In this document: positions 9,550 to 37,883 of the stretch, piece by piece
Numbering within the stretch: the stretch's first letter is position 1
Layout: the number at the start of each line of letters is the position of its first letter
Source of the DNA: a virus
Reading direction: 5' to 3' (one strand)
IMG/VR virus record: IMGVR_UViG_3300025400_000035
Coordinates: 1 to 41,975 of that record
Length of the DNA: 41,975 bases
Position numbers and translations under genes: made by a program
The notes under the pieces: generated by a model
The model's input: the letters and a program-made list of their open reading frames with translations, nothing else
Databases searched by the model: none
Told to the model about the DNA's origin: nothing

Positions 9550-10599
9550 TTAATTTTCTATAAAGTTTAGTATTTTGTTGATAAGATTATCTAACTCTCT
9601 CTGATACACCCCGGGACGATTGTTAACATTATGAACAAATCTATCTTGGTTTTTAATACAATATTGTTTTATATCTTCTAAAGAGTAGTTGCACAGTCTA
9701 TGTAGTTCTCCATATACTGCTGACATTTTTAATAAAGGATCTGTTACCTTATCGTATGAATGATCAATAAAATCATCAAACATATCAAACCCACAATCTC
9801 TTAAATACTGTACATGCCCGTCTACTGTAAAGAATAGAGGTAACTGGTGCATGCAAAAAGCTTTAATAGTTTTTTCAGTTACAAATACTCTATTCCAATG
9901 AAAAGGATACTTGAAGCCGTCAGTATTTGACCAATATTGATTGTTGTACGTAAAGTAAGACGATTCTGTAACAACATGTATTAAAGCATTTTTTCCTAAA
10001 CTATTATACTGCCTGAAATGCACTGCAGGGTCATTCGGATCTCCAATCAAATCAATTTTTATTTCCTTTAAACCTACATCGTGAGAAGGATCTTTACTTA
10101 TACTGTTAAGGGTAACTATTCCTTTCTTATCTAGTCCTGATGAAACTAACAACTTAACTAATGCTGTTCTAGTTTTGCGGGGTTGTCGGTTTAAACAAGC
10201 ATAATATTGATCTCTTTCATTAAACGGTACAGGGTTAAACCCGGTACTTTCTTGTATTGATGCTGAAAAAAAAGTTGATGCAGTAATATGTCTTGGATGG
10301 TAAGAATCCTTACCAGAATCTATATAAATAGCATTTTCGTAAGTCTGTAAAAGGTATAATATATGTTCTTTAAAAGGAGCTTCCTGTATTGCTGAAAAAA
10401 TAAACTTAATATTCTTTTCATTATGTTTATCAACGCATTTTTTTATTACTTCTTCCCACTTATCTACTGTACCTTCTCTAGTTACTTCAAGATAGACTAC
10501 TTGTACGTTTTTTTCAACGCTGTGTGTTTTTACACGTTCTAATAATATACCGCTTAGTATAGTACCGTCATAACTATAATCTATTAAGTTTACTGGCAT
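9550..10599 (-). CDS. Putative glycosyltransferase, VTEKT type (paralogue 1)
   Basis: This 349-residue protein is a paralogue of the gene immediately upstream. The C-terminal half carries RVFVTEKTIKAFCMHQLPLF, then HVQYLRDCGFDMFDDFIDHSYD and TDPLLK. This resembles the EKT/K...P signature of GT10 (fucosyltransferase-like) GT-B enzymes and related proteins in phage and bacterial surface-sugar clusters. The N-terminal half has IKFIFSAIQEAPFKEHIL and AIYIDSGKDSYHPRH, which both copies share. There is no signal peptide, so it should act in the cytoplasm. It is separated from the upstream copy by one base (TAATATG), suggesting coupled translation. The transferase call is an inference from the C-terminal signature; the sugar is unknown. 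Confidence 0.55.
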   Translation of the reverse strand: MPVNLIDYSYDGTILSGILLERVKTHSVEKNVQVVYLEVTREGTVDKWEEVIKKCVDKHNEKNIKFIFSAIQEAPFKEHILYLLQTYENAIYIDSGKDSYHPRHITASTFFSASIQESTGFNPVPFNERDQYYACLNRQPRKTRTALVKLLVSSGLDKKGIVTLNSISKDPSHDVGLKEIKIDLIGDPNDPAVHFRQYNSLGKNALIHVVTESSYFTYNNQYWSNTDGFKYPFHWNRVFVTEKTIKAFCMHQLPLFFTVDGHVQYLRDCGFDMFDDFIDHSYDKVTDPLLKMSAVYGELHRLCNYSLEDIKQYCIKNQDRFVHNVNNRPGVYQRELDNLINKILNFIEN

Positions 10600-10600
10600 A

Positions 10601-11686
10601 TTAGCTTTCTAATAAGATTTTAATTTTATTGAGAGCTGTATCAAGCTCCTTAGCATATACTATATCACAGTTATTTACATTATATAAAAATCTTTCTTTG
10701 TTCTTTTCACAATACGCTCTTATTTCATCTATTGTATATTCATTACACAATCTATATAGTTCGCCAAATACAGCTGTTGTTTTTAAAAGCGGATCGGTTA
10801 TACTATCATAAGAATGATTAATAAAATCTTCAAATAAATCAAATCCATTATCTTTTAAATATTGTACGTGTCCGTCGACAGTAAGAAATAAAGGTAACTG
10901 ATGCATAATAAATGATTTAACGGTTTTTTCTGTTACAAATACTCTATTCCATGGATTAACATATGTGGGGTCTGTATTATAAAAAAAAGACGTCTCATTA
11001 ATCATATTAATAAGAGCGTTGTCTCCTAAGTTATTAAAAATAGGTGAAATAGCTAAAGACACTTTAAACTTTTCATTATTACTTAAATCAATAGTAACAG
11101 GAGACATTACTTTGTCGCCTTGATTATAAAGCTTGTAACCATAACCAGGTGGTGGAACCTGATTACCTGCGGTGCTTGTTATTTGATGGTTTAAAGTTAT
11201 TATACCTTTACTATTTAAACCAGTAATATGTAATAACTTGACAAACGCTGTTCTGTGTATTTTGTACTTTCGGTTTAAGCATACAAAATATTTGTCCCTA
11301 TCGAAAAAAGGTATAGGTGTAAAATCTTTATTTTGCTCTCTAATATTTGCTTCAGCTCTTATTTTAAAACTAAAAAAGTAAGACAAGTTTACATGTCTTG
11401 TATGAAAAGAATCTATTCCAGAATCAATATAAATAACGTTCTCGTCAAAGTTGATTACTCTTAACACATCTGTTTTAAATGGTGCTTCCCCTACCCCGGA
11501 TATTATATACTTAACCCCTATTCGCTGATTTTTCTTTATAAAGTTTATAGCATCTGTTGCCCAATCTAGACCACCATTAAACTTTATATGGTAAAATACC
11601 GCATCAATATCTTTAACATCTAACATAGATATTCTCCATTTTATATCGAGTTTTTCTGCGTTAGTGTCTATATATCTTATAGGCAT
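10601..11686 (-). CDS. Putative glycosyltransferase, VTEKT type (paralogue 2)
   Basis: I start this 361-residue protein at the ATG at 11686, not the in-frame TTG at 11719. The product then begins MPIRYIDTN, aligning with MPVNLIDYS of the paralogue, and a TATAAGTA late octamer lies 5 nt upstream. Shared blocks with the downstream copy include GEAPFKTDVLR, NVIYIDSGIDSFHTRHVN, FDRDKYFVCLNRKYK, NRVFVTEKTVKSFIMHQLPL and FINHSYDSITDPLLKTTAVF. The pair therefore arose by tandem duplication, followed by strong divergence of the N-termini and of the middle segment (an extra 20 residues here). A role in sugar transfer to virion or host surface is inference from the VTEKT signature and from the many other transferases nearby. 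Confidence 0.55.
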   Translation of the reverse strand: MPIRYIDTNAEKLDIKWRISMLDVKDIDAVFYHIKFNGGLDWATDAINFIKKNQRIGVKYIISGVGEAPFKTDVLRVINFDENVIYIDSGIDSFHTRHVNLSYFFSFKIRAEANIREQNKDFTPIPFFDRDKYFVCLNRKYKIHRTAFVKLLHITGLNSKGIITLNHQITSTAGNQVPPPGYGYKLYNQGDKVMSPVTIDLSNNEKFKVSLAISPIFNNLGDNALINMINETSFFYNTDPTYVNPWNRVFVTEKTVKSFIMHQLPLFLTVDGHVQYLKDNGFDLFEDFINHSYDSITDPLLKTTAVFGELYRLCNEYTIDEIRAYCEKNKERFLYNVNNCDIVYAKELDTALNKIKILLES

Positions 11687-11691
11687 ATCCG

Positions 11692-11699
11692 TACTTATA
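11692..11699 (-). promoter_or_regulatory. Late-promoter-like octamer TATAAGTA
   Basis: It lies 5 nt before the ATG at 11686 and decides the start of the upstream transferase paralogue. It drives the two-gene unit leftward. Confidence 0.5.
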
Positions 11700-11756
11700 A
11701 ATAATACCTTTACATGCAAGTTTGTTAAATAAAAGCATATATTATTCTTGTTTTTG

Positions 11757-24239: not shown

Positions 24240-26513
24240 GTGAACGTTTCTGATTACATACTACCATCAGGTTTTACTATAAGCCCTGTTAATAGCGGGT
24301 TTACATATGCTACTCCTATTACATGTACTGTTAGTACAAAGCAAGGTGTACAACCAGCTGCAGTACTAAACTCTTTAAACTTATTCGTACAATACGGAGA
24401 TGGTACTGAAACAGAGATAACACAAGTAACTGATAGTGCCATTGTTGCACCCGCTCACACATACAAATGGCCTGGTGCATATGAAGTAAAGTTAGCTGTT
24501 ATACCTAAAGATGGTAGTTTGTTGCAAAGTTATTCTAAAACATTTTCTGCATTTAACTATATTACAGACTTCATGCAATGGAACTACGGTCAGTGGCCGG
24601 AGTTAACTACCGTTAATAGAAGTCATGGAGCGGTGTTTCACGGCTTTCAATCTTGCCCCCCTGGACCTCTTTATAGTGCTACTCCGTTGTCATTTACGTT
24701 TAGTGTATCTAACCAGTTAAGTAGTGATGTTGTGTTTGAGGTATATGCAGATAGTTCTTTATCTCAGCCCTGGGAAGTAGTAACCCCGGATAATAAGTTT
24801 GCACAGTTAAGACCACGTTGGAGGTTCACCGATACAAGCGGTAACGTTGTCACATCTATATCTGCAACAAACATTACCCCGGTTTATATTAAACCTGATG
24901 GCACTCAAACTACAGCAGTAAATGGTATATTAGTAGGCTATTATGGTACTATAGACTTTTACTACATTGACGATATACCCTCTCTAGTATATAGCACTAA
25001 CACATTTACAGCTAACTTACCAACAGTATGGGTAACATACAATACTAGTTTTGTACCAAACTTACAAGATAGAAATGATGGAAGTGCTCCTTCCTATTCA
25101 AATAGCAATGTGCTACTATCTTCTTATTTTTATGTAAAAGCTTTATCTGCAGATCACTTTAATGTTACAGTTAACGGTGGCAATATACCTTTACCTAAAA
25201 CGCTATGGGCTGATACAGATAATCAGTTTATAGTTACGCTTAATAGCCCGGTACTTTCTTCAGCTGATTTTAGTAATAAAGTACTATTAAACTACCCTCT
25301 AGTAGGAACTACTAATAGTATTTCTGCAACAGTTGCGCCCGCTTCGGCCGCTACAACATTTACCCCTGTTTTTAGTTTAAGTAGATATGATAGTATAAAC
25401 AGAGATACAGGAGGGTTCTATAAAAACATTCTTAGTACTTTACCATTATCCGCTGTTACTCAAACAACTAATGTTAGTGCTTCTTTAGTTGTAGGCACAT
25501 ATGCATTAACTACAATAAATGAACCACATGTAAGTTATTATTCTAAGGCTAATGGTTTAGCCGGTGCTACAACAAGTGTAATAGCAGTGTCTAGTGTTTA
25601 TAACTTTGATGTAGTTAACTATTACAACAAGTATTTTGTACGTAAAATAAACGAAAACTTCAACTACGGTGCTTTATTACAATCGTATATGTTACAGCCG
25701 TTTATGGCTGATAATGTAAACCTGATTGGTTATCTCTCAGCCGTAGGTGGTGATAGTTTTCAATATAACGAAAACTTCGGTACATTAGCATATGAAAAGA
25801 CCGCTAACTTTGTTGCTAATAATGCCGATCCATTAAATAGCGGAGTAGATCAGTTATATTCTCTTGCTGCATTGGTTGATACGGAGTTTGATAACTATAA
25901 CTACAACCCACCGCCAGTACTAAAGAGACAGTTTGATTTATATTCAACCCCTCATGAACGTTTATGGGGTACAAGAGAAAAATACAATACAGACTTTAAC
26001 AATAGAGGATACCATGTTAATCTAGGTGGTACTTTAAGCGCTTATGGTATTAGTACTACTACAGTGTCTGCGGGTCAAAAAATAGTAGTTAATGATATTT
26101 TTGATTCTAGCTTTTTTGAGTTGTTAGAGGTACCCGCTATAAACTCTTATACAAGTATTTCTGCAAACAACATGCAGATGTATTTTCCGCCAGCTTCATC
26201 TTTAACTTTCCCATTAACAGCTTACCCTTTAAGTGCGTTTTATGGTTGGGGATTGAGAACACCTGTAAATGGTAACTATAAGTTCTTTGTATTTAATGAT
26301 GAATATACCAACACACCTGTAAACAATCTTATTGATTGGAACACTCGTACAGATGGTTTATCTACAACTTTAACTGAAACCGCTTCTTCTGTAAAAGACT
26401 GGTATGCAGATGGTGGTATACTTGAAAACATATACAGTTTCTATTTAACTAAGGGACTAAACTTCATAGGAAGTAAGTATTACCAGCTCACAGGCACTAT
26501 ACCTCAATCATGA
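24240..26513 (+). CDS. PKD-domain baseplate-associated structural protein
   Basis: This 757-residue protein starts at GTG (24240), 8 bp after the gp6 stop. Residues about 25-105 show a PKD/Ig-like pattern: FVQYGDGTETEIT, then HTYKWPGAYEVKLAVI, the YGDG...HTY...PG.Y signature. The rest is beta-rich with many Ser, Thr and Asn and almost no charged helices, except for a helical stretch in QFDLYSTPHERLWGTREKYN near residue 570. The position after gp6 suggests a wedge or peripheral baseplate protein, possibly taking the place of T4 gp7, gp8 or gp10, although I cannot match any of them. PKD domains mediate protein or carbohydrate contacts. Its stop overlaps the next gene by ATGA. Confidence 0.62.
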   Translation: MNVSDYILPSGFTISPVNSGFTYATPITCTVSTKQGVQPAAVLNSLNLFVQYGDGTETEITQVTDSAIVAPAHTYKWPGAYEVKLAVIPKDGSLLQSYSKTFSAFNYITDFMQWNYGQWPELTTVNRSHGAVFHGFQSCPPGPLYSATPLSFTFSVSNQLSSDVVFEVYADSSLSQPWEVVTPDNKFAQLRPRWRFTDTSGNVVTSISATNITPVYIKPDGTQTTAVNGILVGYYGTIDFYYIDDIPSLVYSTNTFTANLPTVWVTYNTSFVPNLQDRNDGSAPSYSNSNVLLSSYFYVKALSADHFNVTVNGGNIPLPKTLWADTDNQFIVTLNSPVLSSADFSNKVLLNYPLVGTTNSISATVAPASAATTFTPVFSLSRYDSINRDTGGFYKNILSTLPLSAVTQTTNVSASLVVGTYALTTINEPHVSYYSKANGLAGATTSVIAVSSVYNFDVVNYYNKYFVRKINENFNYGALLQSYMLQPFMADNVNLIGYLSAVGGDSFQYNENFGTLAYEKTANFVANNADPLNSGVDQLYSLAALVDTEFDNYNYNPPPVLKRQFDLYSTPHERLWGTREKYNTDFNNRGYHVNLGGTLSAYGISTTTVSAGQKIVVNDIFDSSFFELLEVPAINSYTSISANNMQMYFPPASSLTFPLTAYPLSAFYGWGLRTPVNGNYKFFVFNDEYTNTPVNNLIDWNTRTDGLSTTLTETASSVKDWYADGGILENIYSFYLTKGLNFIGSKYYQLTGTIPQS

Positions 26514-28378
26514 TAAGTTTTAAAAAATATTATACAGAAAGCATTATACAAGAGGCAGCTGTGGACGATACTCTCAAAAAGCATTTGTCTCATATGGAAG
26601 ACCTTGCTATAGAAGAAGGTAAAAAAGGATTTAATAAGTTCGTTGAACAAGTAGAGAACTTTACATCTTTGCTAGAAGGTTTTAACAGCAAGACAACTGT
26701 TAACTTTAAGATAGATGGTGCACCTGCTCTATTTTGGGGTATAGATGAAACTCAAAATCCTGAAACCGGGGAATATAATAATCAGTTTTTTATCTCAACC
26801 AAGTCTTTCAAACGAGTACACAGTGAACAGGAAGCGGATGAAATATATAAAGAAGCTCCTGGTTTAAGAGAGGTTATTAGAACAGTATTTCCTTATTTAA
26901 AAAATGGGTACGATAACTCAGGTTTAACATATCAAGGCGATTTATTATTCTCTCCAGCTAGACCACCTACAGTAAAAGACTTAGGGGGTAAACAATGTTT
27001 AACATTTCAACCTAATCTTATAACTTATGCTATACCAGTTGATCCTGCTTCTGAACTATATAATATAGCTTCAAAAGCACCGGTTGGTATAGTAGTACAT
27101 GCTGCATTTAATGCTGCAGGTCAAATGCAAAGCAGAGACACCGCTCGAGTAGTATATAGTTTAAAGAAAGCAGGCGTGTTTGCAGAAGGTTCAAATATTA
27201 AGAGTCTTAATATACAGATTGATCCTAACTTAAAAAATACTTTACACGGTCTACTAAATGACGCAAAAAGACAAGTATCTACCGTAGATAACGCATTTGA
27301 TGCAGAATATAGTACAGGCGGGTTTATTACTACTAAATTAAAGGAGTACTTAAACTATATGGTGCGCGAGACAGGCGGTATATTTAAAGCTGCTGAACAA
27401 GGAGAGTCGTTTGATATTAATAAGTTCTTAAACGGTTTTTATACATTCGTAAACAACAAGCTTGTAACAAAAGCTGCTACAGGTAGTGCTAGAGTACAAG
27501 CCAATGCTAGAACAAAATCAGAAGATATAAAAAAGTATCTTATAGAACACAAGAAAGACTTTGCAGGCTTAATAGGTGCTACATATGATATGTTACGTAT
27601 TAAGCTTATATTTCAGCATTTATTAGCTAACACTGAACACAAGCTCAATGGTATGCTGTCTTATATACCTGTAGGAGATGAATGGATATATGCTCCTGAA
27701 GGTGAAGGTAAGGTATTATATATTGGGGACACTCCTAACCAAGTAAAGATAGTAAACCGTAGCAAGTTTAGTAAACTTAACTTTTCATATTCAGGGGAAC
27801 GTGGTAGAAAACCTGCTACTGTAACAGAAGAAGGGCCGGCAACTGAACAAGAAGCACAAAGCATTGGCTTCTTCGGTGGTGGTTTTAATCCTCCTCATAT
27901 CGGTCATTTTAATACAGCTCTAGAAGCTGCTAAACAGAATAATGATCTTTATATTGTGGTAAGCCGTAAAGACAGAGACAATACTGGCATTGATATTAAT
28001 AAAAAGTTAGCATTGTGGAAACTTTTTGTACCTTTACTAGAACGTAATAAAGCTAAAATACATATAGTAGAAGCAGATGTATCTCCTATTGCTACTATTT
28101 ATGGCTATGTTAATGACATAAACCAATCTCCTCTAGCAAATGAAATAACAGTTAAAGCATATGTTGGTCAAGACCCGGTTGACATGAAAGCATATGAAAG
28201 ACTAAACCATAATAGCTATCCTAATGTAGGTAAGATTGAAATAGTACCTATACCAAGATCAGCAAGTGGTACAGATTTTAGAAACTTATTAGCTGCAGGT
28301 GATATTAAGAGCGTAATGAACTTAATACCACAGGGTGTAGATAAATCGATGTATTTAAAAATACTAACCGGTCAATAA
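26510..28378 (+). CDS. Fusion: KxDG ligase-like domain + HIGH-family nucleotidyltransferase
   Basis: This 622-residue protein joins two nucleotide-handling regions. Residues 60-425 resemble a covalent nucleotidyltransferase (DNA/RNA ligase, capping enzyme): VNFKIDGAPALFWG with Lys67 in KxDG, TYQGDLLF (140-147) like motif III, PEGEGKV (396-402) like motif IV, and QVKIVNR (411-417) like motif V. Residues 452-622 resemble NMN adenylyltransferase or cytidylyltransferase: IGFFGGGFNPPHIGHFN with GGGFNPPHIGH at 456-466, and SASGTDFR (584-591) like the ISxTxxR motif. The gene overlaps the PKD protein by ATGA. I infer two active sites, both of which could use ATP; the natural substrate is unknown. Related single-domain proteins occur in cyanophages. 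Confidence 0.65.
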   Translation: MISFKKYYTESIIQEAAVDDTLKKHLSHMEDLAIEEGKKGFNKFVEQVENFTSLLEGFNSKTTVNFKIDGAPALFWGIDETQNPETGEYNNQFFISTKSFKRVHSEQEADEIYKEAPGLREVIRTVFPYLKNGYDNSGLTYQGDLLFSPARPPTVKDLGGKQCLTFQPNLITYAIPVDPASELYNIASKAPVGIVVHAAFNAAGQMQSRDTARVVYSLKKAGVFAEGSNIKSLNIQIDPNLKNTLHGLLNDAKRQVSTVDNAFDAEYSTGGFITTKLKEYLNYMVRETGGIFKAAEQGESFDINKFLNGFYTFVNNKLVTKAATGSARVQANARTKSEDIKKYLIEHKKDFAGLIGATYDMLRIKLIFQHLLANTEHKLNGMLSYIPVGDEWIYAPEGEGKVLYIGDTPNQVKIVNRSKFSKLNFSYSGERGRKPATVTEEGPATEQEAQSIGFFGGGFNPPHIGHFNTALEAAKQNNDLYIVVSRKDRDNTGIDINKKLALWKLFVPLLERNKAKIHIVEADVSPIATIYGYVNDINQSPLANEITVKAYVGQDPVDMKAYERLNHNSYPNVGKIEIVPIPRSASGTDFRNLLAAGDIKSVMNLIPQGVDKSMYLKILTGQ

Positions 28379-28836: not shown

Positions 28837-28840
28837 AAAA

Positions 28841-29257
28841 TTAAATTCGGCCGTTAACACCATCCATACCATCAACCCCTGTACCGCCTGTACTCATACC
28901 GTAACCACCAGTTGTTTTTTCGCCTTCTAGTTCTTCGTATGAAGATTCATCTTTAACTGGCTCGACGTCAGGGCTTTCAATTTCTTCTTTCAACTTAGCT
29001 AACACGTCTTGTAACATATCAGCTGATTGAGTTACATGGGTAACCATCCAAGCCATAATAGGGTGCTCAGCTGGAATCTTTTCCAAGATTTCATGCAACT
29101 CTGCAGATACTTCAGCTGCTTGACGAGCTTTAGTACGAGTCATTTCAACATTGTGATCAGACTTATGAGTACCGCCTGGTTGGACTTCTGTTTCCAAAGG
29201 ATTCTCTTGTACTAAGGAATATTTTTCTGCTAATAGTTTAAATGTGTTGCGGCCCAT
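28841..29257 (-). CDS. Small helical protein with Gly-rich tail
   Basis: I do not recognise this 138-residue protein. Residues 30-95 form a charged helical region (MTRTKARQAAEVSAELHEIL and WMVTHVTQSADMLQDVLAKL), with a short acidic segment and a Gly-rich tail (GGYGMSTGGTGVDG). Similar helical small proteins with a KARQA...ELHE start occur in cyanophages, where their role is unknown. It is the first gene of a leftward pair, with TGTAAATA 5 nt before the ATG, so late expression and a virion or assembly role are plausible. Confidence 0.65.
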   Translation of the reverse strand: MGRNTFKLLAEKYSLVQENPLETEVQPGGTHKSDHNVEMTRTKARQAAEVSAELHEILEKIPAEHPIMAWMVTHVTQSADMLQDVLAKLKEEIESPDVEPVKDESSYEELEGEKTTGGYGMSTGGTGVDGMDGVNGRI

Positions 29258-29262
29258 ACATA

Positions 29263-29270
29263 TATTTACA
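29263..29270 (-). promoter_or_regulatory. Late-promoter-like octamer TGTAAATA
   Basis: It lies 5 nt before the ATG at 29257, the same octamer as before the portal gene. Confidence 0.5.
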
Positions 29271-29296
29271 CAATCCGAATAAAAAATATATAGTAG

Positions 29297-29324
29297 TTGC
29301 TTTAATAAATAACACCGCTATACT
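29297..29324 (+). promoter_or_regulatory. Sigma70-like promoter TTGCTT-16-TATACT
   Basis: The -35 hexamer is at 29297-29302 and the -10 hexamer at 29319-29324, 9 nt before the ATG at 29334. The -10 and the 16-bp spacing match the dut promoter. Confidence 0.55.
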
Positions 29325-29333
29325 ATTAAAACT

Positions 29334-29840
29334 ATGGGAATGTACGACATAATAACAGTTGAAGACAAGCTACCTTGGACGGATGAAATGTGGGAAGAGG
29401 GATTGCCTAATACTTGTACAGAGTTTCAAACTAAAGGCTTAGACGAGTCTATGTCCAACTACAAAATTGAGAATGGTAGACTGTTATTGCAACAATCCGA
29501 AAAAAACTGGGAAGATACAAATTATCATGGTTTGCTTAGTTTCTATGATTATAAACCAAACGATAAACCAGGTAATAATGATTGCTGGATAGAGTTTACT
29601 GCAACATTTACTAATGGGCAAGTAGATAAGATTGTGGTAACTGGATTCGAAAAAACTAGCAACACAACCCGTTTAGAGGCTATAAAAGTATTAACTGAAG
29701 AAATACTTCGTAATAGAAACCGTTGGTACAATAAATACTTCAACTACACCAGACCTGTAAGTTGGTTCCGTAGACAGGTATGGGACGGGTTTTGGTATCA
29801 AGCTAGTCGGTTTTGCGACAAAATGCGTTTATTGTGGTAA
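29334..29840 (+). CDS. Conserved-type phage protein MGMYD (168 aa)
   Basis: I cannot give a function. The N-terminus MGMYDIITVEDKLPW and NTCTEFQTKGLDESMSNYKI are of a kind I have seen in unassigned phage proteins. A central beta-rich part (DCWIEFTATFTNGQVDKIVV) precedes a helix (LEAIKVLTEEILRNRNRWYN) and a Trp/Arg-rich basic end (RPVSWFRRQVWDGFWYQASR). The only plus-strand gene in this part, it has its own sigma70-like promoter and no late octamer, so early expression is likely. Its end overlaps the convergent GT2 gene by 12 bp. Confidence 0.7.
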   Translation: MGMYDIITVEDKLPWTDEMWEEGLPNTCTEFQTKGLDESMSNYKIENGRLLLQQSEKNWEDTNYHGLLSFYDYKPNDKPGNNDCWIEFTATFTNGQVDKIVVTGFEKTSNTTRLEAIKVLTEEILRNRNRWYNKYFNYTRPVSWFRRQVWDGFWYQASRFCDKMRLLW

Positions 29841-30533
29841 CGGGCCATCTGAATAAGGCCCGTACCGTTGTTCTACTATTTGCATATTACGTGCAAATAT
29901 TTTAGCTTGTTCAGGGTTACGATTTACAGTAACCCCTCCGTCGTGATATATAGGAAAATGCCCTGACATTTTGTTTGTACCATCAATATGTACTAGCACT
30001 TGCTCTGGTACTTGATGTATAGTAAAGCCCTTTGAATAAGCTTTCATACAATAGTCTATATCTTCCCCGCACCCTGGAGTAAAAATCTCATCTAATAAAC
30101 CGATAGTGTTAATAACTTTACGACTAATAGCAGCACAAAAGAACAAGATCCAAGGCTTACCGCCTTGATAACGTTTAATAACACCAGTAACACCAGCAGT
30201 AGGGGTAGTATTAAAAGGTTCTGTTAATGTCTTGTACCAGTGATCAGCTAGAAAAACAGTATCGTTGTTTAATAAGATAACTATATCACCGGTAGCAGCT
30301 GACATACCCATATTAACTGCTTTAGGGTAGCCTAAAGGTTTATGCCAATATATACACTGTACAGGGTAGTTTTTATACTCGTTAAGCACATTTATAGGTG
30401 TGCCATCTGTACACCCATTTGATACTATAATCACCTCTCCATCGGTTAAATCAGTATTTTGTATAATACTGTCTACACATTTTTTAACCAAGTCCCAACG
30501 ATTTAAAGTCGGTATTACAATAGAGAACTTCAT
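29829..30533 (-). CDS. GT2 family glycosyltransferase (paralogue B)
   Basis: This 234-residue GT-A transferase begins KFSIVIPTLNRWDLVKKCVD and has VIIVSNGCTDGTP (nucleotide-binding), the metal-binding NNDTVF near residue 93, and the acceptor/catalytic CGEDIDYCMKAY near residue 153. These are the classical GT2 features. Its closest relative is the adjacent gene upstream (same MKFSIVIPT-NRW opening, same SNGCTDGTP), indicating tandem duplication. The two overlap by 4 bp. It is short for GT2 and has no membrane segment. It is probably a soluble transferase acting on a phage or host surface glycan, expressed from the late octamer at 31229. Confidence 0.85.
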   Translation of the reverse strand: MKFSIVIPTLNRWDLVKKCVDSIIQNTDLTDGEVIIVSNGCTDGTPINVLNEYKNYPVQCIYWHKPLGYPKAVNMGMSAATGDIVILLNNDTVFLADHWYKTLTEPFNTTPTAGVTGVIKRYQGGKPWILFFCAAISRKVINTIGLLDEIFTPGCGEDIDYCMKAYSKGFTIHQVPEQVLVHIDGTNKMSGHFPIYHDGGVTVNRNPEQAKIFARNMQIVEQRYGPYSDGPLPQ

Positions 30534-31222
30534 AAAATGCGAACCCTTCCATAACGGTTTTCAAGTATCTTAGCACATACTTCTTTGTGTTTAACCTTTT
30601 CGTAGCTTTCACCACCTCTGTGCATTTCCGGTTCATGAAAGAGAGGAAATGATTCTTCCATATTAGGACCTACCATTACTGCACGGTGCACGGTGTAACC
30701 AGCTTTTATAGCTCTAATGCTAAAGTCTGTATCTTCTCCACCTCCGTTGTTAAACACCGGGTCTAAGAAACCTATTCTATTAAATACTTCTCTTTTAATC
30801 ATTGCACAGAAGAACACTATACAGTCTGCTGCATAAACACTTTGATCTCCTACTGGTACCATCGATGGCCCAGAAATACCTGCTGTAGGGTATTTTAAAA
30901 ATGGTTCAACTAAGTTATTCAACCAAGTAGGTCCGAGTACCACGACATCTGAATCTAAACGTACGATGTAGTCACCTTTCGCTACATTAAAACCTACATT
31001 ACCAGCGCCTGAATATCCTAGACGTTCCGGCCAATGTATTACTTTTACAGGGTAATTCTTATAAGTGCTTGTTACTAGTTCAGGTGTACCATCAGTACAA
31101 CCATTTGACACCACTATAATCTCTACAGAAGATAAATCAGCAGTATTGCTTATAACACTATCAATACAGCGTTGTAAAAGTGGCCACCTATTACAAGTGG
31201 GTATTACAATAGAAAACTTCAT
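30530..31222 (-). CDS. GT2 family glycosyltransferase (paralogue A)
   Basis: This 230-residue protein opens MKFSIVIPTCNRWPLLQRCI and has EIIVVSNGCTDGTPELV, RLDSDVVVLGP (DxD) and the late catalytic GGGEDTDFSIRAIKAGY. It is paralogous to the next gene downstream; the phrases VKVIHWPERLGYSGAGNVGF and VQCIYWHKPLGYPKAVNMG align. Differences in the middle suggest different sugar or acceptor specificities. It is the first of the pair, and an 8-bp hairpin and a GGTAAGTA octamer lie directly before its ATG. GT2 is secure; the substrate is not known. Confidence 0.86.
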   Translation of the reverse strand: MKFSIVIPTCNRWPLLQRCIDSVISNTADLSSVEIIVVSNGCTDGTPELVTSTYKNYPVKVIHWPERLGYSGAGNVGFNVAKGDYIVRLDSDVVVLGPTWLNNLVEPFLKYPTAGISGPSMVPVGDQSVYAADCIVFFCAMIKREVFNRIGFLDPVFNNGGGEDTDFSIRAIKAGYTVHRAVMVGPNMEESFPLFHEPEMHRGGESYEKVKHKEVCAKILENRYGRVRIL

Positions 31223-31223
31223 T

Positions 31224-31246
31224 ATTACTACTTACCCGGTAGTAAT
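31224..31246 (-). promoter_or_regulatory. Hairpin with late octamer GGTAAGTA before GT2 gene
   Basis: ATTACTAC and GTAGTAAT form an 8-bp perfect inverted repeat with a 7-nt loop that ends 1 nt before the ATG region. GGTAAGTA (31229-31236) lies inside it, 6 nt before the ATG, so a structure may overlap a late promoter. Confidence 0.45.
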
Positions 31247-31258
31247 ATTTTTCCAACT

Positions 31259-31459
31259 TTAAGCGTAGGTATTAGTTGTAACCGATTCTTTTGTTTCAGA
31301 ATGTATTACACTTCCGTAACCATCAAGTACTTTGACGTGATCGGCTTTGTTGTTTTTAGCAAAATGAAATGCATCGAACTTAGTTCCAAACACGTGCTCG
31401 GTAAACTTGAGCACGCCGTTTTCCCATTTATGAAGTTGTACTGTGTGGTGTTTCGACAT
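31259..31459 (-). CDS. Small protein (66 aa), unknown function
   Basis: I recognise no domain. The protein MSKHHTVQLHKWENGVLKFT continues with EHVFGTKFDAFHFAKNNKAD, a pattern of two short strands, a helix, then VKVLDGYGSVIHSETK and a Thr-rich end. It could be a small alpha/beta fold of a kind common in phages. It overlaps the upstream transferase gene by 32 bp in a different frame on the same strand, which is longer than the usual ATGA coupling. The gene is real on the basis of its clear codon pattern and tight packing, but the function is open. Confidence 0.6.
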   Translation of the reverse strand: MSKHHTVQLHKWENGVLKFTEHVFGTKFDAFHFAKNNKADHVKVLDGYGSVIHSETKESVTTNTYA

Positions 31460-32522
31460 TTTGTTTAAAGTATTTAATCCAGATTTTTTCTGTTTTGTTA
31501 GTATACTTAGTCAAATTGTGTTGATTAATCCGCACATTTAATCCAGGTAAATAATAAGAGTTACGTAAAGCTTTGCTTATACTATCACTACTATTTGGAT
31601 CAGCATTAAACAAACAACTAGCCCAAGGTACCTCTTTTGTAGCAACTAAAGGCACCCCTTGACTGATCAAATCAGCTCCAACAATATTAAATGTTTCTGA
31701 AAAGTTACATTGCATACCCACGTCCATATTACGACATAATTCCAAGAACTGCTCCCTTGGTGTCCATTCATGCATTACTAGTTCATGCCTGGTGCCTGCT
31801 AACTGCATAAACATAGCCTTAAGATTGTGAAACACTGGTTCGCCTTTCATTTCATTACGACCAATATTAATATGAAACCGTAGCTTTTTGTTAACAGATT
31901 CAGCAAACTTTAATGCACCATAAGCCTGTAATAAATGATTCTTTAATAAACGTATAGCTCCAAAGCACCCTACATCAACTGTATCTAGCTTACGTACTAT
32001 ACCTTTTACACTCCAATAAGATTGAGGGTAATAGTTTGGCAAGTAAACCACTCTATTGTTAGTTTCTTGTTTTGCCCAACCATATTTTATACGAGCATAG
32101 GCGCGTATTTCATCTAACATACGCGGTGCATTAACCCCGACACTTATTTGAGGGTAAGATAAATAATCTGCAATCCAATCCATTGCCATACCCTCTCCTG
32201 CCATAAAAGGCATTTCAGAGTGCAATCGTACAACCCATTTAACTGTTGGGTGTAAAGCGGTTAACACAGCAAACTTAGATGGCACCACCCACAATGCTTC
32301 AATAATAACATATGTAGGTTTGTATTTAGTGACTAACCGATCTATACAGTTGTTATCAATAGCTACCTCAATGTTGGCTGTAACACCAGCCTTATTGAGC
32401 ATATCAACCATAAAAGAAGCGGAATTAAATAATCCAGTACTTAATCCCTTAGGGCTATGGACAATGTCATTATAATCCTCTCTACGTTTAAGAATGAAAA
32501 GTATGTTAGTGTTAGTAGCCAC
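31428..32522 (-). CDS. GT4-like glycosyltransferase
   Basis: This 364-residue protein resembles GT-B glycosyltransferases of the GT4/GT1 clan. The N-terminal domain has NILFILKRREDYNDIV and VVRLHSEMPFMAGEG. The C-terminal domain has VDVGCFGAIRLLKNHLLQAYGA (the usual 'G...R..K' donor loop), then HELVMHEWTPREQFLELCRNMDVGMQ and ETFNIVGADLISQGVPLVAT. The last matches the E-x7-E donor motif in position, but the second Glu is replaced (here Asp), so donor binding may differ. It starts at GTG (32522), with TATAAGTA 8 nt upstream. It acts probably in the cytoplasm on a surface or virion acceptor. Confidence 0.72.
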   Translation of the reverse strand: MATNTNILFILKRREDYNDIVHSPKGLSTGLFNSASFMVDMLNKAGVTANIEVAIDNNCIDRLVTKYKPTYVIIEALWVVPSKFAVLTALHPTVKWVVRLHSEMPFMAGEGMAMDWIADYLSYPQISVGVNAPRMLDEIRAYARIKYGWAKQETNNRVVYLPNYYPQSYWSVKGIVRKLDTVDVGCFGAIRLLKNHLLQAYGALKFAESVNKKLRFHINIGRNEMKGEPVFHNLKAMFMQLAGTRHELVMHEWTPREQFLELCRNMDVGMQCNFSETFNIVGADLISQGVPLVATKEVPWASCLFNADPNSSDSISKALRNSYYLPGLNVRINQHNLTKYTNKTEKIWIKYFKQNVETPHSTTS

Positions 32523-32530
32523 GGCACAGG

Positions 32531-32538
32531 TACTTATA
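32531..32538 (-). promoter_or_regulatory. Late-promoter-like octamer TATAAGTA
   Basis: It lies 8 nt before the GTG start at 32522 and supports that start. Confidence 0.5.
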
Positions 32539-32566
32539 TCCGGACTTAAAATAAACTAGTTTAAGA

Positions 32567-33871
32567 TTATATTAATTTTACCGTAACCGTATTATTAGTT
32601 ATTCTGAACAACTTTACTTTGCTCCCTAGTTCATTATAGGGTACAAACTCGTATGTCGAGTCACCTATCACAAACACTACACCACCAGTATCTGTCTTTT
32701 CAAAAATAAGACCTAAAGCTGTAGCAGCCACTTCATTTTCAGGTTCAAAATAACCCCCTACCCTAGCCTGAAAAGTAGCACTATCTTTATACACAGTTTC
32801 TTTTACCATAGTAAGAAAGTCAGATAATTTTGATCCACTTTGAGAACCGATATAATCTCTAGCTCTCATGTCTATGACTTTAGCTCTATGATTGTCAGTC
32901 TTGTAAATGTTTTTTACTGCTGCTGCAGTACCGGTTAACGGTGTTTTGTCTACATTAGCAGTGTCTGGAGAAGTGAGTTGACCTAACCATTCCGCTATTA
33001 AGTAAAGTTTAGGAGTACCTTCTTTAGAAGAAGTATTCTTACTAACTGCACCGCCTGGTAACGAAGTACTATACTCTGTAAAGTAAGCACGAGCTTGTTC
33101 AAGCTCTTTTTTTAAATCTTTACTAAACACTTTTTGTTCTTCAGGAGACAGTCTACGGAAGGCATTAGATATGGCTAGTATAGCTTTTGTTTGATTGAGT
33201 ATATCTGCTGCAACTTTAGCTCCATGTACTCCTGTAGGTACATCTGCTGTACGAGTTTTTATTTGCTTTACTTCAAATGTTTTACCATTGTAGCTTACAT
33301 CTAAAGAGTCCCCACCACCAGTAATCATTTGCTTCTCAAGTATAATGTTTTTAATGGCTTGGGGTTCACTTTTCTTTTTTTCGTATTCGTTTTTATCTTC
33401 CGGTACCGAACTACTAGCTAATAAAAGTGCAGCAACAGAAAACTCTCCATTACCTTGACCAGTACGAGAGAGCTTACTTGCATTGGTTTGTATGCGTTCG
33501 TAAAATAGAGCTTTTTGAGTTTCATCCCATTTACCAACTAAAGGTAAACCGTATTCAGTGACTGTTGGTTCATGGACTTGTGGTGCTGCTGGTTGTTCAG
33601 GTTGTGCTGCTGGGGTAATAGGTACTGGGTTAGGTACTACCGGTTGACTTGCTTGTGCACGACGAGCATCTATTGCTGCTTGTGCTTTAACTAAGGCTTC
33701 TTGATCTTGATTTGAGTCTCTATACCCACTCATCACCTCGTTGTACAAGCTCACCACACTCTTTTTAGGCTTATAAGATTCTTTATTAAGATACACATCT
33801 ACTAAAGTTTTCTTAGCGGAAACTTTTTCACCTTTTATTAGTTTATTGTATAAGTCTGGTAGTCTAGCCAC
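32567..33871 (-). CDS. PD-(D/E)XK nuclease-like protein with disordered N-terminus
   Basis: This 434-residue protein begins with a helical region (1-70), followed by a Pro/Gln/Ala-rich linker to about residue 105. Then GQGNGEFSVAALLLAS (Glu143) and GGGDSLDVSYNGKTFEVKQIK follow, in which Asp188 or Asp191 and Glu200-Val-Lys202 match the D...ExK core of PD-(D/E)XK nucleases. Some T4-like phages carry proteins with this pattern; their role is unknown. The C-terminal half has mixed helices and strands. Start is GTG (33871), with AGTAAATA 8 nt upstream. A nuclease function is an inference from the spaced core and not confirmed by context. Confidence 0.5.
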   Translation of the reverse strand: MARLPDLYNKLIKGEKVSAKKTLVDVYLNKESYKPKKSVVSLYNEVMSGYRDSNQDQEALVKAQAAIDARRAQASQPVVPNPVPITPAAQPEQPAAPQVHEPTVTEYGLPLVGKWDETQKALFYERIQTNASKLSRTGQGNGEFSVAALLLASSSVPEDKNEYEKKKSEPQAIKNIILEKQMITGGGDSLDVSYNGKTFEVKQIKTRTADVPTGVHGAKVAADILNQTKAILAISNAFRRLSPEEQKVFSKDLKKELEQARAYFTEYSTSLPGGAVSKNTSSKEGTPKLYLIAEWLGQLTSPDTANVDKTPLTGTAAAVKNIYKTDNHRAKVIDMRARDYIGSQSGSKLSDFLTMVKETVYKDSATFQARVGGYFEPENEVAATALGLIFEKTDTGGVVFVIGDSTYEFVPYNELGSKVKLFRITNNTVTVKLI

Positions 33872-33879
33872 GGTAGATA

Positions 33880-33887
33880 TATTTACT
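33880..33887 (-). promoter_or_regulatory. Late-promoter-like octamer AGTAAATA
   Basis: It lies 8 nt before the GTG start of the PD-(D/E)XK-like gene. Confidence 0.45.
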
Positions 33888-33891
33888 ACGT

Positions 33892-34704
33892 TTATAAGAT
33901 TTTATCGTGTATGGTATCGATTAATAAATCTATACCTTTATGATGAGGATGTAAGTCATTACAATAACCCAAGTAGTTTGGTATATCTTTAGTAGCCCCG
34001 TCTATACTAGCTATTGCGCACCACTTTTTTTGTATTTTAAATATTTGCTGCATTCCTTCGTACATTTCCTTAATAACTGGATTGGTGCCTGGCTGTATAT
34101 CTATTATTGAAGTAATAATGTTTGAAGGGTTGTATTCTGGATCAATCAACTGAAGCCAAGAGTTTACCAGCACATTTATATTTTTGTATTTAGTTACACA
34201 AGGTTGTACCGCTCCTAACCCTCCGACAAGGTTAATAGTTAACCTATATTTTTGCGCCACTATAGACAATGAATGATAAAAAAACTCTATATTAAACCTT
34301 AATATACTCAACAAATCATAATGATCGTTATTTTTAAAAAAATCCCAAACATAATACATGTCCGATTGTGTGGACTGGTTAATACGATAAAAAAGAGTAG
34401 CTGAAGGTATATCCCTAAGCGGGTCGGTTTGTAAAATTAAAATTTTATATTTAGACAAATCTTCTTTTGCACGAAGTTTATCTTGTATAAAATTAATTAA
34501 TCTTTCAACGTTCGTACTATTACTACGACCCCCTTGAGAGTGATTTTCTACAGTTTTATAGTATTGACGGAACTTAGCGGTAAAGTACTGATCCGGTAGT
34601 AGTCCTTTTGCAGGTGTGTTATCTCGTTTAAAACCGTTGAAGTCTGTATACGCTCCACACCCCCAACTGTCGCCTATTATTACTAATGTGTCTGTCTTAT
34701 TCAT
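33892..34704 (-). CDS. SGNH-type hydrolase
   Basis: This 270-residue protein has block I VIIGDSWGCG with nucleophile Ser13, a GGRSN block near residue 58 (oxyanion Gly), QTDPLRD around 93 in place of the usual GxND, and DLHP (Asp250, His252) near the C-terminus, where the catalytic Asp/His lie in the family. SGNH enzymes hydrolyse ester bonds, often O-acetyl groups on polysaccharides. There is no signal peptide. It starts one base after the stop of the radical SAM gene (TAATATG), and a second SGNH gene lies divergently beyond it. Whether it removes or transfers acyl groups on a host or virion glycan is unknown. Confidence 0.72.
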   Translation of the reverse strand: MNKTDTLVIIGDSWGCGAYTDFNGFKRDNTPAKGLLPDQYFTAKFRQYYKTVENHSQGGRSNSTNVERLINFIQDKLRAKEDLSKYKILILQTDPLRDIPSATLFYRINQSTQSDMYYVWDFFKNNDHYDLLSILRFNIEFFYHSLSIVAQKYRLTINLVGGLGAVQPCVTKYKNINVLVNSWLQLIDPEYNPSNIITSIIDIQPGTNPVIKEMYEGMQQIFKIQKKWCAIASIDGATKDIPNYLGYCNDLHPHHKGIDLLIDTIHDKIL

Positions 34705-34705
34705 A

Positions 34706-35914
34706 TTAATATCCCATTGCTGTGGCTATTTCTTTATGGGTGGACATAAAGCTCTGATTTCTGCGTGCATCTGTTTTTTTAATATAGCTTATAAACTCTG
34801 TCCCGTCGCTCCCTGCTCCGTTATTAATGAACTGTATAACATTGTTTACATCTCTTTTGTAACAATCTTTCCAGTTAATAGAGTTAAACTTATTGATAAT
34901 AAGTTCCTTGGCTTGTGGTGTCAAGAAGTGTATACACATAAAAGAGGGTACATGTAGCATGTTAAAATAAATATTACCGAAGTTTTTAGTTTCAGCCCAT
35001 TGCAGTAGTTCATCAATATAGTAAACGTTTTGTATATTAATAGTGAAGCATAGCTGAGTAGAAATGTTAGTTTGAGTGTCTCTCAACCGGTGCACCTTAT
35101 CAATATTGTCATTAACAACATTCCATTGTGCTCCGTAGCGCTCGTACTCATACCTCTCTCCAACATTATCTATACTAAAAGCAATGTCAACGTGTTTAAA
35201 GTTAGTCCACAGTTCCGCTAGTTTGGAAGGCGTTTGAGTGGCGTTAGTATTGTAATGTATCTTAATGTTCTTAGAATAACCCTGCTCCACTGCAAACTGT
35301 AACAAGTTGACGTGTTCTTTTATAAGCCAGGGCTCTCCGCCTGTAAACTCAAAGTACTTAACATTAGGTAATAGTTTTTTTAAGTTGTCCCAAAACGTCT
35401 GGGTCTTACGCGGCCAGGCCCCCTGCTTTAGCATACTATAAGAAACGGTGCTAGTTCTGTCTTTGTTGTCTGGTAAAAAATCCATATCCTCTTCCGCCCA
35501 CTTACTACTTGCATAAGCACTACAGATCCGGCACCTCAGGTTACAGATGTTCCCAAGTTTTAAATCTAAGAACCACAACTGATTAGGTTCATCATTGTAC
35601 CAATCTATTTGCTCGTACATTTCCCCAATGATAGGTTTACTATAAATGCGTTTGCTGGGTTTACCGGCTTTCTCTTCATCCCAGCACCTCTTGCACGTGG
35701 CAGGCATTACACCCTCTCTAAACTGTTTACGCAACTCCTGCATATACTTGCTATTGTACACAGTTTCTAAAGTGGTGGTGTTTAGGTCGTATTTGTTGCC
35801 ATTTTCGTCCACTATTTCGTCCTGGGCCATGCAGCACGGTTTCAGTGCCCCTAACGGCCCGGCCTCAATGCTAATCCACGGTAATGCGCATATTGTTTTT
35901 GGTAAATCCGACAT
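34706..35914 (-). CDS. Twitch-type radical SAM protein
   Basis: This 402-residue enzyme has a radical SAM core with GNICNLRCRICS (Cys124, Cys128, Cys131, the CX3CX2C that holds the 4Fe-4S cluster) and TGGEPW (191-196), which binds SAM. The N-terminal region has an additional cysteine set, Cys9 (ICALPWISIEAGP), Cys27-Cys28 (LKPCCMAQDE) and Cys74/Cys77 (TCKRCWDE), as in twitch-domain proteins that carry a second cluster. It is followed by an SGNH hydrolase gene with one-base spacing. Proteins of this type occur in aquatic phages, where the substrate is unknown; peptides or nucleotide sugars are possible. A late TATAAATA octamer 12 nt upstream suggests expression with virion genes. Confidence 0.85.
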   Translation of the reverse strand: MSDLPKTICALPWISIEAGPLGALKPCCMAQDEIVDENGNKYDLNTTTLETVYNSKYMQELRKQFREGVMPATCKRCWDEEKAGKPSKRIYSKPIIGEMYEQIDWYNDEPNQLWFLDLKLGNICNLRCRICSAYASSKWAEEDMDFLPDNKDRTSTVSYSMLKQGAWPRKTQTFWDNLKKLLPNVKYFEFTGGEPWLIKEHVNLLQFAVEQGYSKNIKIHYNTNATQTPSKLAELWTNFKHVDIAFSIDNVGERYEYERYGAQWNVVNDNIDKVHRLRDTQTNISTQLCFTINIQNVYYIDELLQWAETKNFGNIYFNMLHVPSFMCIHFLTPQAKELIINKFNSINWKDCYKRDVNNVIQFINNGAGSDGTEFISYIKKTDARRNQSFMSTHKEIATAMGY

Positions 35915-35926
35915 TATATTTAAGTT

Positions 35927-35934
35927 TATTTATA
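35927..35934 (-). promoter_or_regulatory. T4-type late promoter TATAAATA
   Basis: An exact consensus match, 12 nt before the radical SAM ATG. Confidence 0.55.
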
Positions 35935-35944
35935 ATAACCTCCC

Positions 35945-35952
35945 AATAAGTA
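35945..35952 (+). promoter_or_regulatory. Late-promoter-like octamer AATAAGTA
   Basis: It lies 8 nt before the ATG at 35961 and, with the octamer at 35927 on the other strand, forms a divergent late promoter pair. Confidence 0.45.
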
Positions 35953-35960
35953 AAGTCAAC

Positions 35961-36758
35961 ATGATTAATGGTAGGTTATTTGTTTTTGGGTGCTCGTTTA
36001 GCAATCACATATGGCCAACGTACGCGGATCTCATTTCCCCAAACTTTAAACAGTACTACAACTTGGGCTCCGGAGGAGCCGCCAACCAAGTCATCCACCA
36101 CCGCCTCACCCAGGCCGCTTCCGCCTACCACATCACCCATGGTGACTACGTCATACTGCAGTGGGCGGGAGTGGAGAGGGAGGGCCGTTTAATAGACGGA
36201 ACCCTACCGCACGATCTGTTTGGTAACACCATAGATGATGTGTATGGGGGGTACGGGAACTGGTACGGTACGGGGTTTATCGGGAATAGATATAGTAAGG
36301 AGTTTATGGAAAGGTACTCCAGTTGGAGGGGCATAGTGATGAGTTCATTGAGTTTGTTTGCTTCTGGGGAAGCACTACTTAAGTGCACAGGCGCCACCTA
36401 CCACATCTTCGGTTCCCAGGATTATGAAGTCATTAAAAACAACTACAAACAATACGAAGATACGGTAACCCTGTACAGGGATGTGTTTAGTACGTGGCTA
36501 CCTAGACCGTTAAGCATCATTACCATGTCCCCTCAAGTAGAGATCATTAAATCAGATGGCACAAGTTATAAAGACCTACACCCCACTCCAAATGACTACG
36601 TAAAGTACGTTTCTACCGTACTACCTCGGTACCCAGTACCAGAACATATGCTAGAACATGCGCACCAAATAACGACGGATATAACAAGAGCACCCATTAA
36701 AGAACAACTCTATGGTAGTAGGGGTAAGAGAGAGATAATAGACAAAAGAATCTATTAA
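35961..36758 (+). CDS. SGNH-type hydrolase (divergent copy)
   Basis: This 265-residue protein starts at the ATG at 35961, since translation from further upstream would overlap the divergent gene and lose the promoter. Block I is RLFVFGCSFSN with nucleophile Ser12, followed by GSGGAANQ (oxyanion block), then DLHP (Asp205, His207). It resembles the SGNH gene on the other strand in plan, with low sequence similarity. Base composition is clearly richer in G and C between 36061 and 36250 than in its neighbours, which suggests a more recent origin. It is divergent from the radical SAM gene, with a shared promoter gap, and overlaps the next convergent gene by 3 bp at the stops. Confidence 0.7.
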   Translation: MINGRLFVFGCSFSNHIWPTYADLISPNFKQYYNLGSGGAANQVIHHRLTQAASAYHITHGDYVILQWAGVEREGRLIDGTLPHDLFGNTIDDVYGGYGNWYGTGFIGNRYSKEFMERYSSWRGIVMSSLSLFASGEALLKCTGATYHIFGSQDYEVIKNNYKQYEDTVTLYRDVFSTWLPRPLSIITMSPQVEIIKSDGTSYKDLHPTPNDYVKYVSTVLPRYPVPEHMLEHAHQITTDITRAPIKEQLYGSRGKREIIDKRIY

Positions 36759-37171
36759 CAGTGCCACTTACGCAGAGCTAATGCCTTACGTGTCGGTTCG
36801 CCATTAGGCTTTTTCATCGGACCCTTTACTCCAGACATCCGTGCACAGAAGCTCTTTCTTCTATTAGCCGCTTTTGACCCAGCCTTCAACTTACTGGGCT
36901 TTGTAGTGACAGCCATCGATAAATGCGACCCTGGATGACTACGACGGTAACTGTTAATACCCTTTTGGTTTAAACCACCACTTGGGGATTTCCCAGCCTT
37001 CTTCTGCCACGTAGGTGCATGGCCTTCCTTAGGCACGCAGTTAGGAACGGTCTTACCGTTCTTCTCTTTTGTACCTACCGGATGGTACCCTTTCCAACAA
37101 GGATTGTCTTTTGGGTTCTTTAACCCCTCGAGTATTAAGTTAGCTGCCGCATTAAACTTGTTGAAATACAT
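36755..37171 (-). CDS. Basic DUF6321-like protein
   Basis: This 138-residue, very basic protein has KDNPCWKGYHPVGTKEKNG, PNCVPKEG, KSPSGGLNQKGINSYRR and a C-terminal RRKSFCARMSGVKGP...LRKWHC. I recall this Cys-Lys-Gly pattern as a domain of unknown function (DUF6321) present in phages and some bacteria. A DNA-packing or nucleic-acid-binding role is possible from the charge. An AATAAGTA octamer (37178-37185) 6 nt before the ATG suggests late expression. The stop overlaps the stop of the convergent SGNH gene by 3 bp. Function is not known. Confidence 0.72.
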   Translation of the reverse strand: MYFNKFNAAANLILEGLKNPKDNPCWKGYHPVGTKEKNGKTVPNCVPKEGHAPTWQKKAGKSPSGGLNQKGINSYRRSHPGSHLSMAVTTKPSKLKAGSKAANRRKSFCARMSGVKGPMKKPNGEPTRKALALRKWHC

Positions 37172-37177
37172 ATACCA

Positions 37178-37185
37178 TACTTATT
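37178..37185 (-). promoter_or_regulatory. Late-promoter-like octamer AATAAGTA
   Basis: It lies 6 nt before the ATG at 37171, at the edge of the early region. Confidence 0.45.
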
Positions 37186-37807: not shown

Positions 37808-37829
37808 ATTGGTTCCTTATTGTTATATG

Positions 37830-37858: not shown

Positions 37859-37860
37859 CT

Positions 37861-37879: not shown

Positions 37880-37883
37880 TACT

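Follow-up and report, generated by a model that had tools for sequence, protein, structure and literature searches.

T4-like phages carry many radical S-adenosylmethionine (SAM) enzymes, for which a literature search gave no stated role. The excerpt of PMC7029224 describes a pelagimyophage host recognition cluster with radical SAM cassettes and glycosyltransferases in a hypervariable island; that of PMC5332604 counts 12 radical SAM genes in one marine T4-like genome and discusses them under Fe-S metabolism. The locus treated here is a block of seven genes at positions 29,829-36,758 of IMGVR_UViG_3300025400_000035, a linear IMG/VR fragment of 41,975 bases that was analysed whole and is called the window. 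By gene content, as read from translations, the window phage appears to be T4-like. Its block holds glycosyltransferase genes and a radical SAM gene, R1, placed between two divergent genes of SGNH type, and in large uncultured phages the orthologs of R1 belong to a cluster that keeps a fixed order and follows a fibre-like gene. That T4-like phages have radical SAM cassettes in variable islands is already published; the ordered R1 cluster and its link to SGNH genes appear to be the new part. The explanation favoured here, and held tentatively, is that R1 and the SGNH genes form a module without the rest of that cluster, probably taken from it, which would tailor a glycoconjugate.

The trait of a hypervariable island with glycosyltransferases and radical SAM genes, known from the pelagimyophage cluster, is present in the comparison of the window clade. 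In the excerpt of PMC7029224 radical SAM genes are merely mentioned; the present analysis links one ortholog with SGNH genes and follows it back to a cluster whose order is fixed. The block also differs in having no recognised fibre gene. The host recognition cluster of T4-like phages is placed between VrlC and gp14, with tail fibres; in the window the gene that precedes the island matches just phrog_455/cytidyltransferase, and no gp14 was identified. The phage of PMC5332604 resembles the R1 phages in carrying many radical SAM genes in one T4-like genome, and linkage to SGNH, glycosyltransferase or fibre genes is not mentioned in the excerpt. Glycans on phage virion proteins are represented by the virion glycosylation of mycobacteriophages cited in PMC12619734; these are unrelated phages, and the excerpt mentions no radical SAM or SGNH enzymes. 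Among open-access papers a search turned up neither the ordered R1 cluster nor an association of radical SAM, SGNH, carbamoyltransferase and fibre genes.

R1 and its SGNH neighbours

The seven block genes are intact open reading frames with the boundaries first assigned to them. Three are central to the argument:

33892..34704, minus strand: SGNH1, a putative SGNH-type hydrolase/acyltransferase (profile match, motifs kept in clade homologs, family members in R1-cluster loci L261 and L263, spacing)
34706..35914, minus strand: R1, a predicted radical SAM enzyme with an N-terminal twitch (half-SPASM) domain (family and SPASM matches, invariant cysteines, model)
35961..36758, plus strand: SGNH2, a predicted SGNH-type hydrolase/acyltransferase, divergent from R1, with its ATG at 35961 (alignment with 24 phage relatives, Foldseek and VIA-align matches to SGNH structures)

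By score, cysteine pattern and N-terminal auxiliary-cluster domain, R1 is placed in the N-twitch radical SAM subfamily NF033640. It scores 337.7 bits against this NCBIfam model ('twitch domain-containing radical SAM protein', cut-off 170), 32.6 bits against PF04055 (cut-off 29.5) and, over N-terminal residues 9-78, 24.2 bits against the SPASM family PF13186 (cut-off 21.5). In an alignment of 69 phage sequences the CX3CX2C cysteines (C124, C128 and C131), the GGE motif (G192, G193, E194) and the auxiliary-cluster cysteines C9, C27, C74 and C77 are invariant, and the predicted ligands for two iron-sulfur clusters are all retained in R1. The description of NF033640 names no substrate. The structure comparison proposed in the initial annotation gave a confident model (pLDDT 95.1), but the substrate classes of its matches tie: BlsE (Z 13.7), viperin (13.2), anSME (13.2) and DesII (13.0), in a comparison well tested for residues 58-366 only. 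BlsE and DesII act on sugar nucleotides, anSME and SkfB on proteins or peptides, and viperin on nucleotides. BtrN matched the N-terminal twitch region weakly (E 0.085). Full-length matches to the R1 fold were found in uncultured phages, with weaker ones in Vibrio phages KVP40 (Q6WHP4) and phi-pp2.

Neither SGNH protein has a family match over cut-off. SGNH1 aligns with an SGNH profile over blocks I-II (E 1.1e-4, probability 57); SGNH1 and a clade relative both keep GDSW, G59/N62 and D250-x-H252 (as D-x-H-P), and motif and profile together suggest that it is SGNH-type. For SGNH2, modelled with a middling pLDDT of 69.6, the best PDB matches in Foldseek are GDSL/SGNH esterases (YxiM, E 4.5e-4), and VIA-align superposes it on E. 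coli TesA with Z 11.1 and 3.8 A over 157 residues. The predicted structure of SGNH2 has the SGNH fold. S12 and H207 are nearly invariant in the alignment of relatives; the histidine motif is D-x-H, versus the D-x-x-H spacing that is presumably usual for block V.

The stop codon of R1 lies one base from the start of SGNH1. An exact search for this junction found no second contig, so no independent assembly supports it; locus L180 is 99-100% identical to the window as far as the gene that follows SGNH1, which encodes a 434-residue protein, and ends after it.

The ordered R1 cluster of large uncultured phages

Single-sequence scans of IMG/VR with R1, SGNH1 and SGNH2 found no relatives; profile scans found them. 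At least 590 phage relatives came from the first scan with a radical SAM profile, and the best 80, together with Vibrio phage K566, reduce to 38 non-redundant groups with 216 radical SAM genes; as in every scan, the 80 loci are best matches, not a random sample. SGNH genes, 27 in all, occur in 16 of the 38 groups. All but one (26/27) lie within three genes of a radical SAM gene and 17 adjoin one, with neighbouring pairs on the same strand in 18 of 20 cases (starts were taken as the first ATG, GTG or TTG, so overlaps of neighbours are overstated). SGNH genes account for 26 of 290 genes near a radical SAM gene versus 1 of 225 far from one (Fisher 3e-6), a difference in which near genes are favoured because the SGNH families were built by iteration on the loci in which they were counted.

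A second scan used a profile of the window radical SAM and its two closest kinds, and its best 80 orthologs comprise 50 non-redundant ones. These R1 orthologs are 51-63% identical to the window enzyme, while the best paralog in the same loci reaches 42%. Their phages, whose contigs reach 374 kb, carry R1 in the following order:

FIB - STR - ~104 aa - GT8-like - GT8-like - ~120 aa - L006_4068 - radical SAMs - R1 - VTEKT/SGNH/radical SAM - radical SAM - X363 - SGNH - SGNH - carbamoyltransferase

Here FIB is a fibre protein, STR a Ser/Thr-rich fibre-like protein (mean composition 17% Thr and 11% Ser), X363 a conserved unknown and L006_4068 a conserved protein family. In the 50 R1 loci (and, in brackets, in the other 36 radical SAM groups) the counts are SGNH 44 (14), VTEKT 35 (5), L006_4068 45 (16), carbamoyltransferase 46 (9), GT8-like 37 (5), X363 47 (2), STR 31 (3) and FIB 18 (1); the 50 groups are related phages, so these are not independent events, and many loci end before FIB. 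In the control groups from the window's own clade, found with PhoH, each of the eight families occurs in 0 of 26. The co-occurrence of radical SAM and SGNH genes in related phages, which the initial annotation had set as a check, is borne out by 16 of the 38 groups in the first scan and 44 of the 50 in the second.

The order repeats from locus to locus. GT8 lies upstream of every radical SAM gene in 37 of 37 loci, X363 precedes the carbamoyltransferase in 46 of 46 with SGNH between them in 42, and STR stands at most three genes upstream of GT8 in all 31 R1 loci that hold GT8 and upstream genes. The gene directly after R1 is a radical SAM in 25 loci, VTEKT in 10, SGNH in 7 and another gene in 8. 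The one FIB protein scanned matches an IMC autoproteolysis domain at 28.1 bits (cut-off 25). R1 loci have 4-9 radical SAM genes, whereas the window has one. Common to the window and the R1 phages are R1, both kinds of SGNH and two VTEKT genes, which in the window are:

9550..10599, minus strand: VTEKT protein 1 (hidden Markov model (HMM) match; the family also occurs in 35 of 50 R1 loci)
10601..11719, minus strand: VTEKT protein 2 (HMM match; the family also occurs in R1 clusters)

This VTEKT pair (9550-11719) occupies another variable site, flanked by the major capsid gene and phoH; in relatives both flanks are kept, with other genes or none inside. Among PDB sequences no relative of VTEKT or L006_4068 was found, so these names are motif or by-eye labels. 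Locus L013 (15219-21077) has, beside a run of radical SAM, SGNH and carbamoyltransferase genes, a 1,953-residue open frame that is truncated by the end of the locus and matches the L006_4068 family.

Window R1 is nested inside the R1 tree, in a 33-tip group with support 0.923, on a long branch (0.56). Its GC content at third codon positions (GC3) is raised, at 0.45; SGNH2, the gene at 36755 and R1 are the top three of 22 genes computed. The gene at 36755 has homologs in the clade, so high GC3 alone is no proof of foreign origin. R1 phages and window-clade phages were both present in samples 3300025430 and 3300013094, and several samples are shared in all. The nesting, the GC3, the shared samples and a clade island in locus L173 with both SGNH genes and no radical SAM gene would fit a transfer from an R1 cluster. 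The ortholog group was found here only in uncultured phages. A scan of 50,697 phage records gave no R1 ortholog and three matches of 22-26% identity, and a bacterial genome scan gave 43 radical SAM relatives, the best 31% identical. Some bacterial contigs, L224, L206, L220 and L222 (Chloroflexi, Chitinophagales, Elusimicrobia), have 6-10 radical SAM genes in a stretch of about 20 kb, and in L206 a gene for carbamoyltransferase is also present. Vibrio phage K566 (L002, 12729-30096) has five N-twitch-like radical SAMs among proteins that look by eye like glycosyltransferases.

The island in the window's own clade

The PhoH scan gave 80 best-matching loci of the same clade as the window phage, and as a control it represents one clade. 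A scan with the gene ahead of the island gave 26 anchored loci. This anchor and the remaining features of the island are:

26510..28378, plus strand: anchor gene preceding the island in the clade; phrog_455 and cytidyltransferase-like, conserved
29829..30533, minus strand: GT2a, predicted family 2 glycosyltransferase, 234 aa; PF00535 83.1 bits (cut-off 23.3)
30530..31222, minus strand: GT2b, predicted family 2 glycosyltransferase and GT2a paralog, 230 aa; PF00535 101.8 bits (cut-off 23.3)
31259..31459, minus strand: small conserved open reading frame between GT2b and the GT4-like gene; 40-55% identity across eight clade loci
31428..32522, minus strand: GT4-like (GT-B) glycosyltransferase candidate; PHROG and clade-profile matches, alignment, 70-74% identity in the clade
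32567..33871, minus strand: 434-residue protein with no family match over cut-off; fast-evolving homologs (26-36%) at the same position in relatives
35927..35934, minus strand: TATAAATA, a possible T4-type late promoter 20 nt upstream of R1; frequency not above chance

Relatives hold the island at the same place, with GT2a at about 75% identity, the GT4-like protein at about 73% and divergent homologs of the 434-residue protein. SGNH-family genes were found by HMM in 7 of the 26 anchored loci (L183, L184, L185, L188, L189, L192 and L193), several of the 26 ending earlier. In L173 and L183 homologs of SGNH1 and SGNH2 are divergent, with overlapping starts and no radical SAM between them. The clade-typical part is GT2a, the GT4-like gene, the 434-residue protein and, in several relatives, SGNH genes, and the window adds a radical SAM between the divergent SGNH genes. 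As a variable island the block is of an ordinary kind; what is unusual is the insertion. Weak matches to a broad radical SAM profile occur in two anchored loci, L201 and L205.

The first gene calls for the block hold for the two GT2 genes and the N-twitch radical SAM, both over curated cut-offs, for the SGNH2 fold and for the SGNH1 motif. The GT4-like assignment is weak, its best support being a PHROG glycosyltransferase match (E 0.0012); the clade profile gives E 0.17 with a chain labelled 'glycosyl transferases group 1'. The initial annotation had also counted about ten surface-modifying candidates in the window. In a Pfam scan of those at 4513, 5007, 9550, 15322 and 16553, with 10601 left out, the GT2 gene at 5007-6059 passes the PF00535 level (31.2 versus 23.3 bits) and the other four have no match at E 0.1.

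GtrB of the Gtr O-antigen conversion system is membrane-anchored. GT2a and GT2b share the GT2 domain with GtrB-type proteins, as PHROG labels indicate; they are short and, with maximum hydropathy of 1.66 and 1.39, have no transmembrane-like segment. None of the seven block proteins has one by hydropathy, and across the R1 loci one was found in 1 of 755 genes of nine families. By this measure the enzymes of block and cluster look soluble. That speaks against a membrane system of the Gtr kind and for action in the cytoplasm, as on components of the virion or their precursors.

The block genes had been credited with late promoters. A window-wide late-promoter signal was rejected: exact copies of TATAAATA number 7 (6.79 expected) and copies with one mismatch 144 (135 expected), counts that are at chance level and leave the promoter claim unsupported. 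Within the block an exact copy lies at most 80 nt upstream only at R1, and a one-mismatch copy only at the GT4-like gene. Around the block (28300-38500) there are 10 terminator-like sites where 5.8 are expected. The small gene at 36755-37171 has GC3 0.47 and a C-terminal part that is matched by the ends of many PHROG families.

What the block may do

In the favoured explanation the window phage would be a freshwater T4-like phage and the block a variable accessory island, a picture no firmer than the explanation to which it belongs. R1 would have come, most likely, from large phages whose orthologs lie in the conserved cluster. Soluble glycosyltransferases in the cytoplasm may assemble a short glycan, either on a carrier or on a structural protein of the phage; R1 could then make a radical change on a sugar or side chain, and the SGNH enzymes might add or remove an acyl group. 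A larger proposal, rather doubtful as it stands, is that a dedicated multi-step radical pathway in the large uncultured phages, made up of two GT8-like enzymes, 4-9 radical SAM enzymes, SGNH acyl enzymes and a carbamoyltransferase, remodels a glycan or side chain on the upstream STR protein. This would be a radical post-translational modification of virion adhesins, and the window phage would carry a stripped-down, transferable unit of it.

Several observations weigh against the favoured explanation. At E 1e-5 the window radical SAM has no match in the 26 anchored clade loci, and none of 30 clade records found with PhoH reaches the NF033640 cut-off, while 20 of 20 records found with the radical SAM do, with 2-15 matches each; R1 is therefore the most variable gene of the block. 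The island of the clade persists without it, so that a pathway 'driven by' a radical SAM enzyme, as first proposed, is unsupported there. GT8, L006_4068, X363, carbamoyltransferase and fibre-like families are absent from the window (HMM, E 0.01), although the window is a fragment and cluster genes could lie outside it. The modelled fold of R1, tied between sugar-nucleotide, peptide and nucleotide enzymes, chooses no substrate. The glycosyltransferase labels of the R1 cluster are weak, resting on weak matches or none; 'GT8-like', for example, derives from a glycogenin match at E 0.0076. Pfam families near radical SAM genes were counted in a sample from the 38 groups: Asp/Asn beta-hydroxylase leads with 8 of 123, ahead of DUF6071 (a family matched by some SGNH proteins) and methyltransferases, and no glycosyltransferase family is among the top 25. 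That near sample took 123 of 261 genes, alternate ones with seven L002 genes and a single long gene dropped; the far sample took 123 of 172, leaving out L002, L075 onwards and a few other genes, and the comparison of the two gave no glycan signature. A family of large proteins near radical SAM genes (L077, 5757-7715), whose BLAST cluster extends over 14 radical SAM groups, has a C-terminal Asp/Asn beta-hydroxylase domain fused to a long N-terminal part without assigned function.

Decoration of virion proteins, perhaps of a collagen-like fibre, or a change of host glycans was the function first suggested. The synteny in relatives, with all 31 informative R1 loci behind STR, speaks for a fibre link; the window block lies about 28 kb from the collagen-like gene. 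The conserved, fibre-linked cluster with its many radical SAM genes gives the surface-decoration idea a better footing outside the window than inside. The collagen-like G-x-S repeat was rejected as substrate, since it occurs in 0 of 38 radical SAM loci. In the window the fibre-like protein at 62-1426 has (G-[FIY]-S)n repeats, and similar ones occur in clade relatives L096 and L109, control loci whose records have no N-twitch radical SAM over cut-off.

It is also conceivable, if unlikely, that the enzymes alter the host surface polysaccharide during infection and block the entry of other phages, as proposed for the glycosyltransferases of the pelagimyophage island. In the excerpt of PMC7029224 that island has glycosyltransferases and radical SAM cassettes beside fibres, and the glycosyltransferases are read as surface-altering, a reading given there without experimental test. 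Fibre genes and genes for surface change may travel together, both being receptor-related. The hydropathy results for block and cluster proteins count against a host-surface role.

Less likely still, R1 could be a recent passenger, acquired alone without the cluster and now decaying or otherwise used. A single radical SAM in the window, the long branch, the lack of R1 in clade relatives and the lack of further cluster-only genes would all suit a passenger. Its frame is intact, however, its iron-sulfur ligands are kept, and it stands one base from SGNH1, with an SGNH gene adjoining as in 7 of the 50 R1 loci.

A small molecule or modified peptide made by the radical SAM clusters with natural-product-type tailoring appears improbable. 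Asp/Asn hydroxylases, methyltransferases, aminotransferases, nitroreductases and carbamoyltransferases do occur near radical SAM genes, and maturases of ribosomally synthesized and post-translationally modified peptides are among the top fold matches of R1. Against this, GT8-like and SGNH genes recur in R1 loci and no precursor peptide was identified, the 104- and 120-residue proteins being unlike short leader peptides in the four loci read. Hypermodification of phage DNA, for which it can be said that some viral glycosyltransferases glycosylate DNA (according to a title cited in the literature), is very improbable. PF00303 (thymidylate synthase/hydroxymethylase) occurs in just 4 of 37 radical SAM records, and five records as long as 172-340 kb are without it; this makes a reading based on hydroxymethyl-DNA weaker. 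The R1 cluster is instead closely linked to fibre-like genes.

With its fixed order behind a fibre-like gene, the R1 cluster makes the role of these radical SAM enzymes open to test and offers a candidate substrate by name. If the proposal is true, phages would chemically diversify their adhesins or the surface of the host, with a bearing on host range, on competition between phages and on unstudied radical chemistry.

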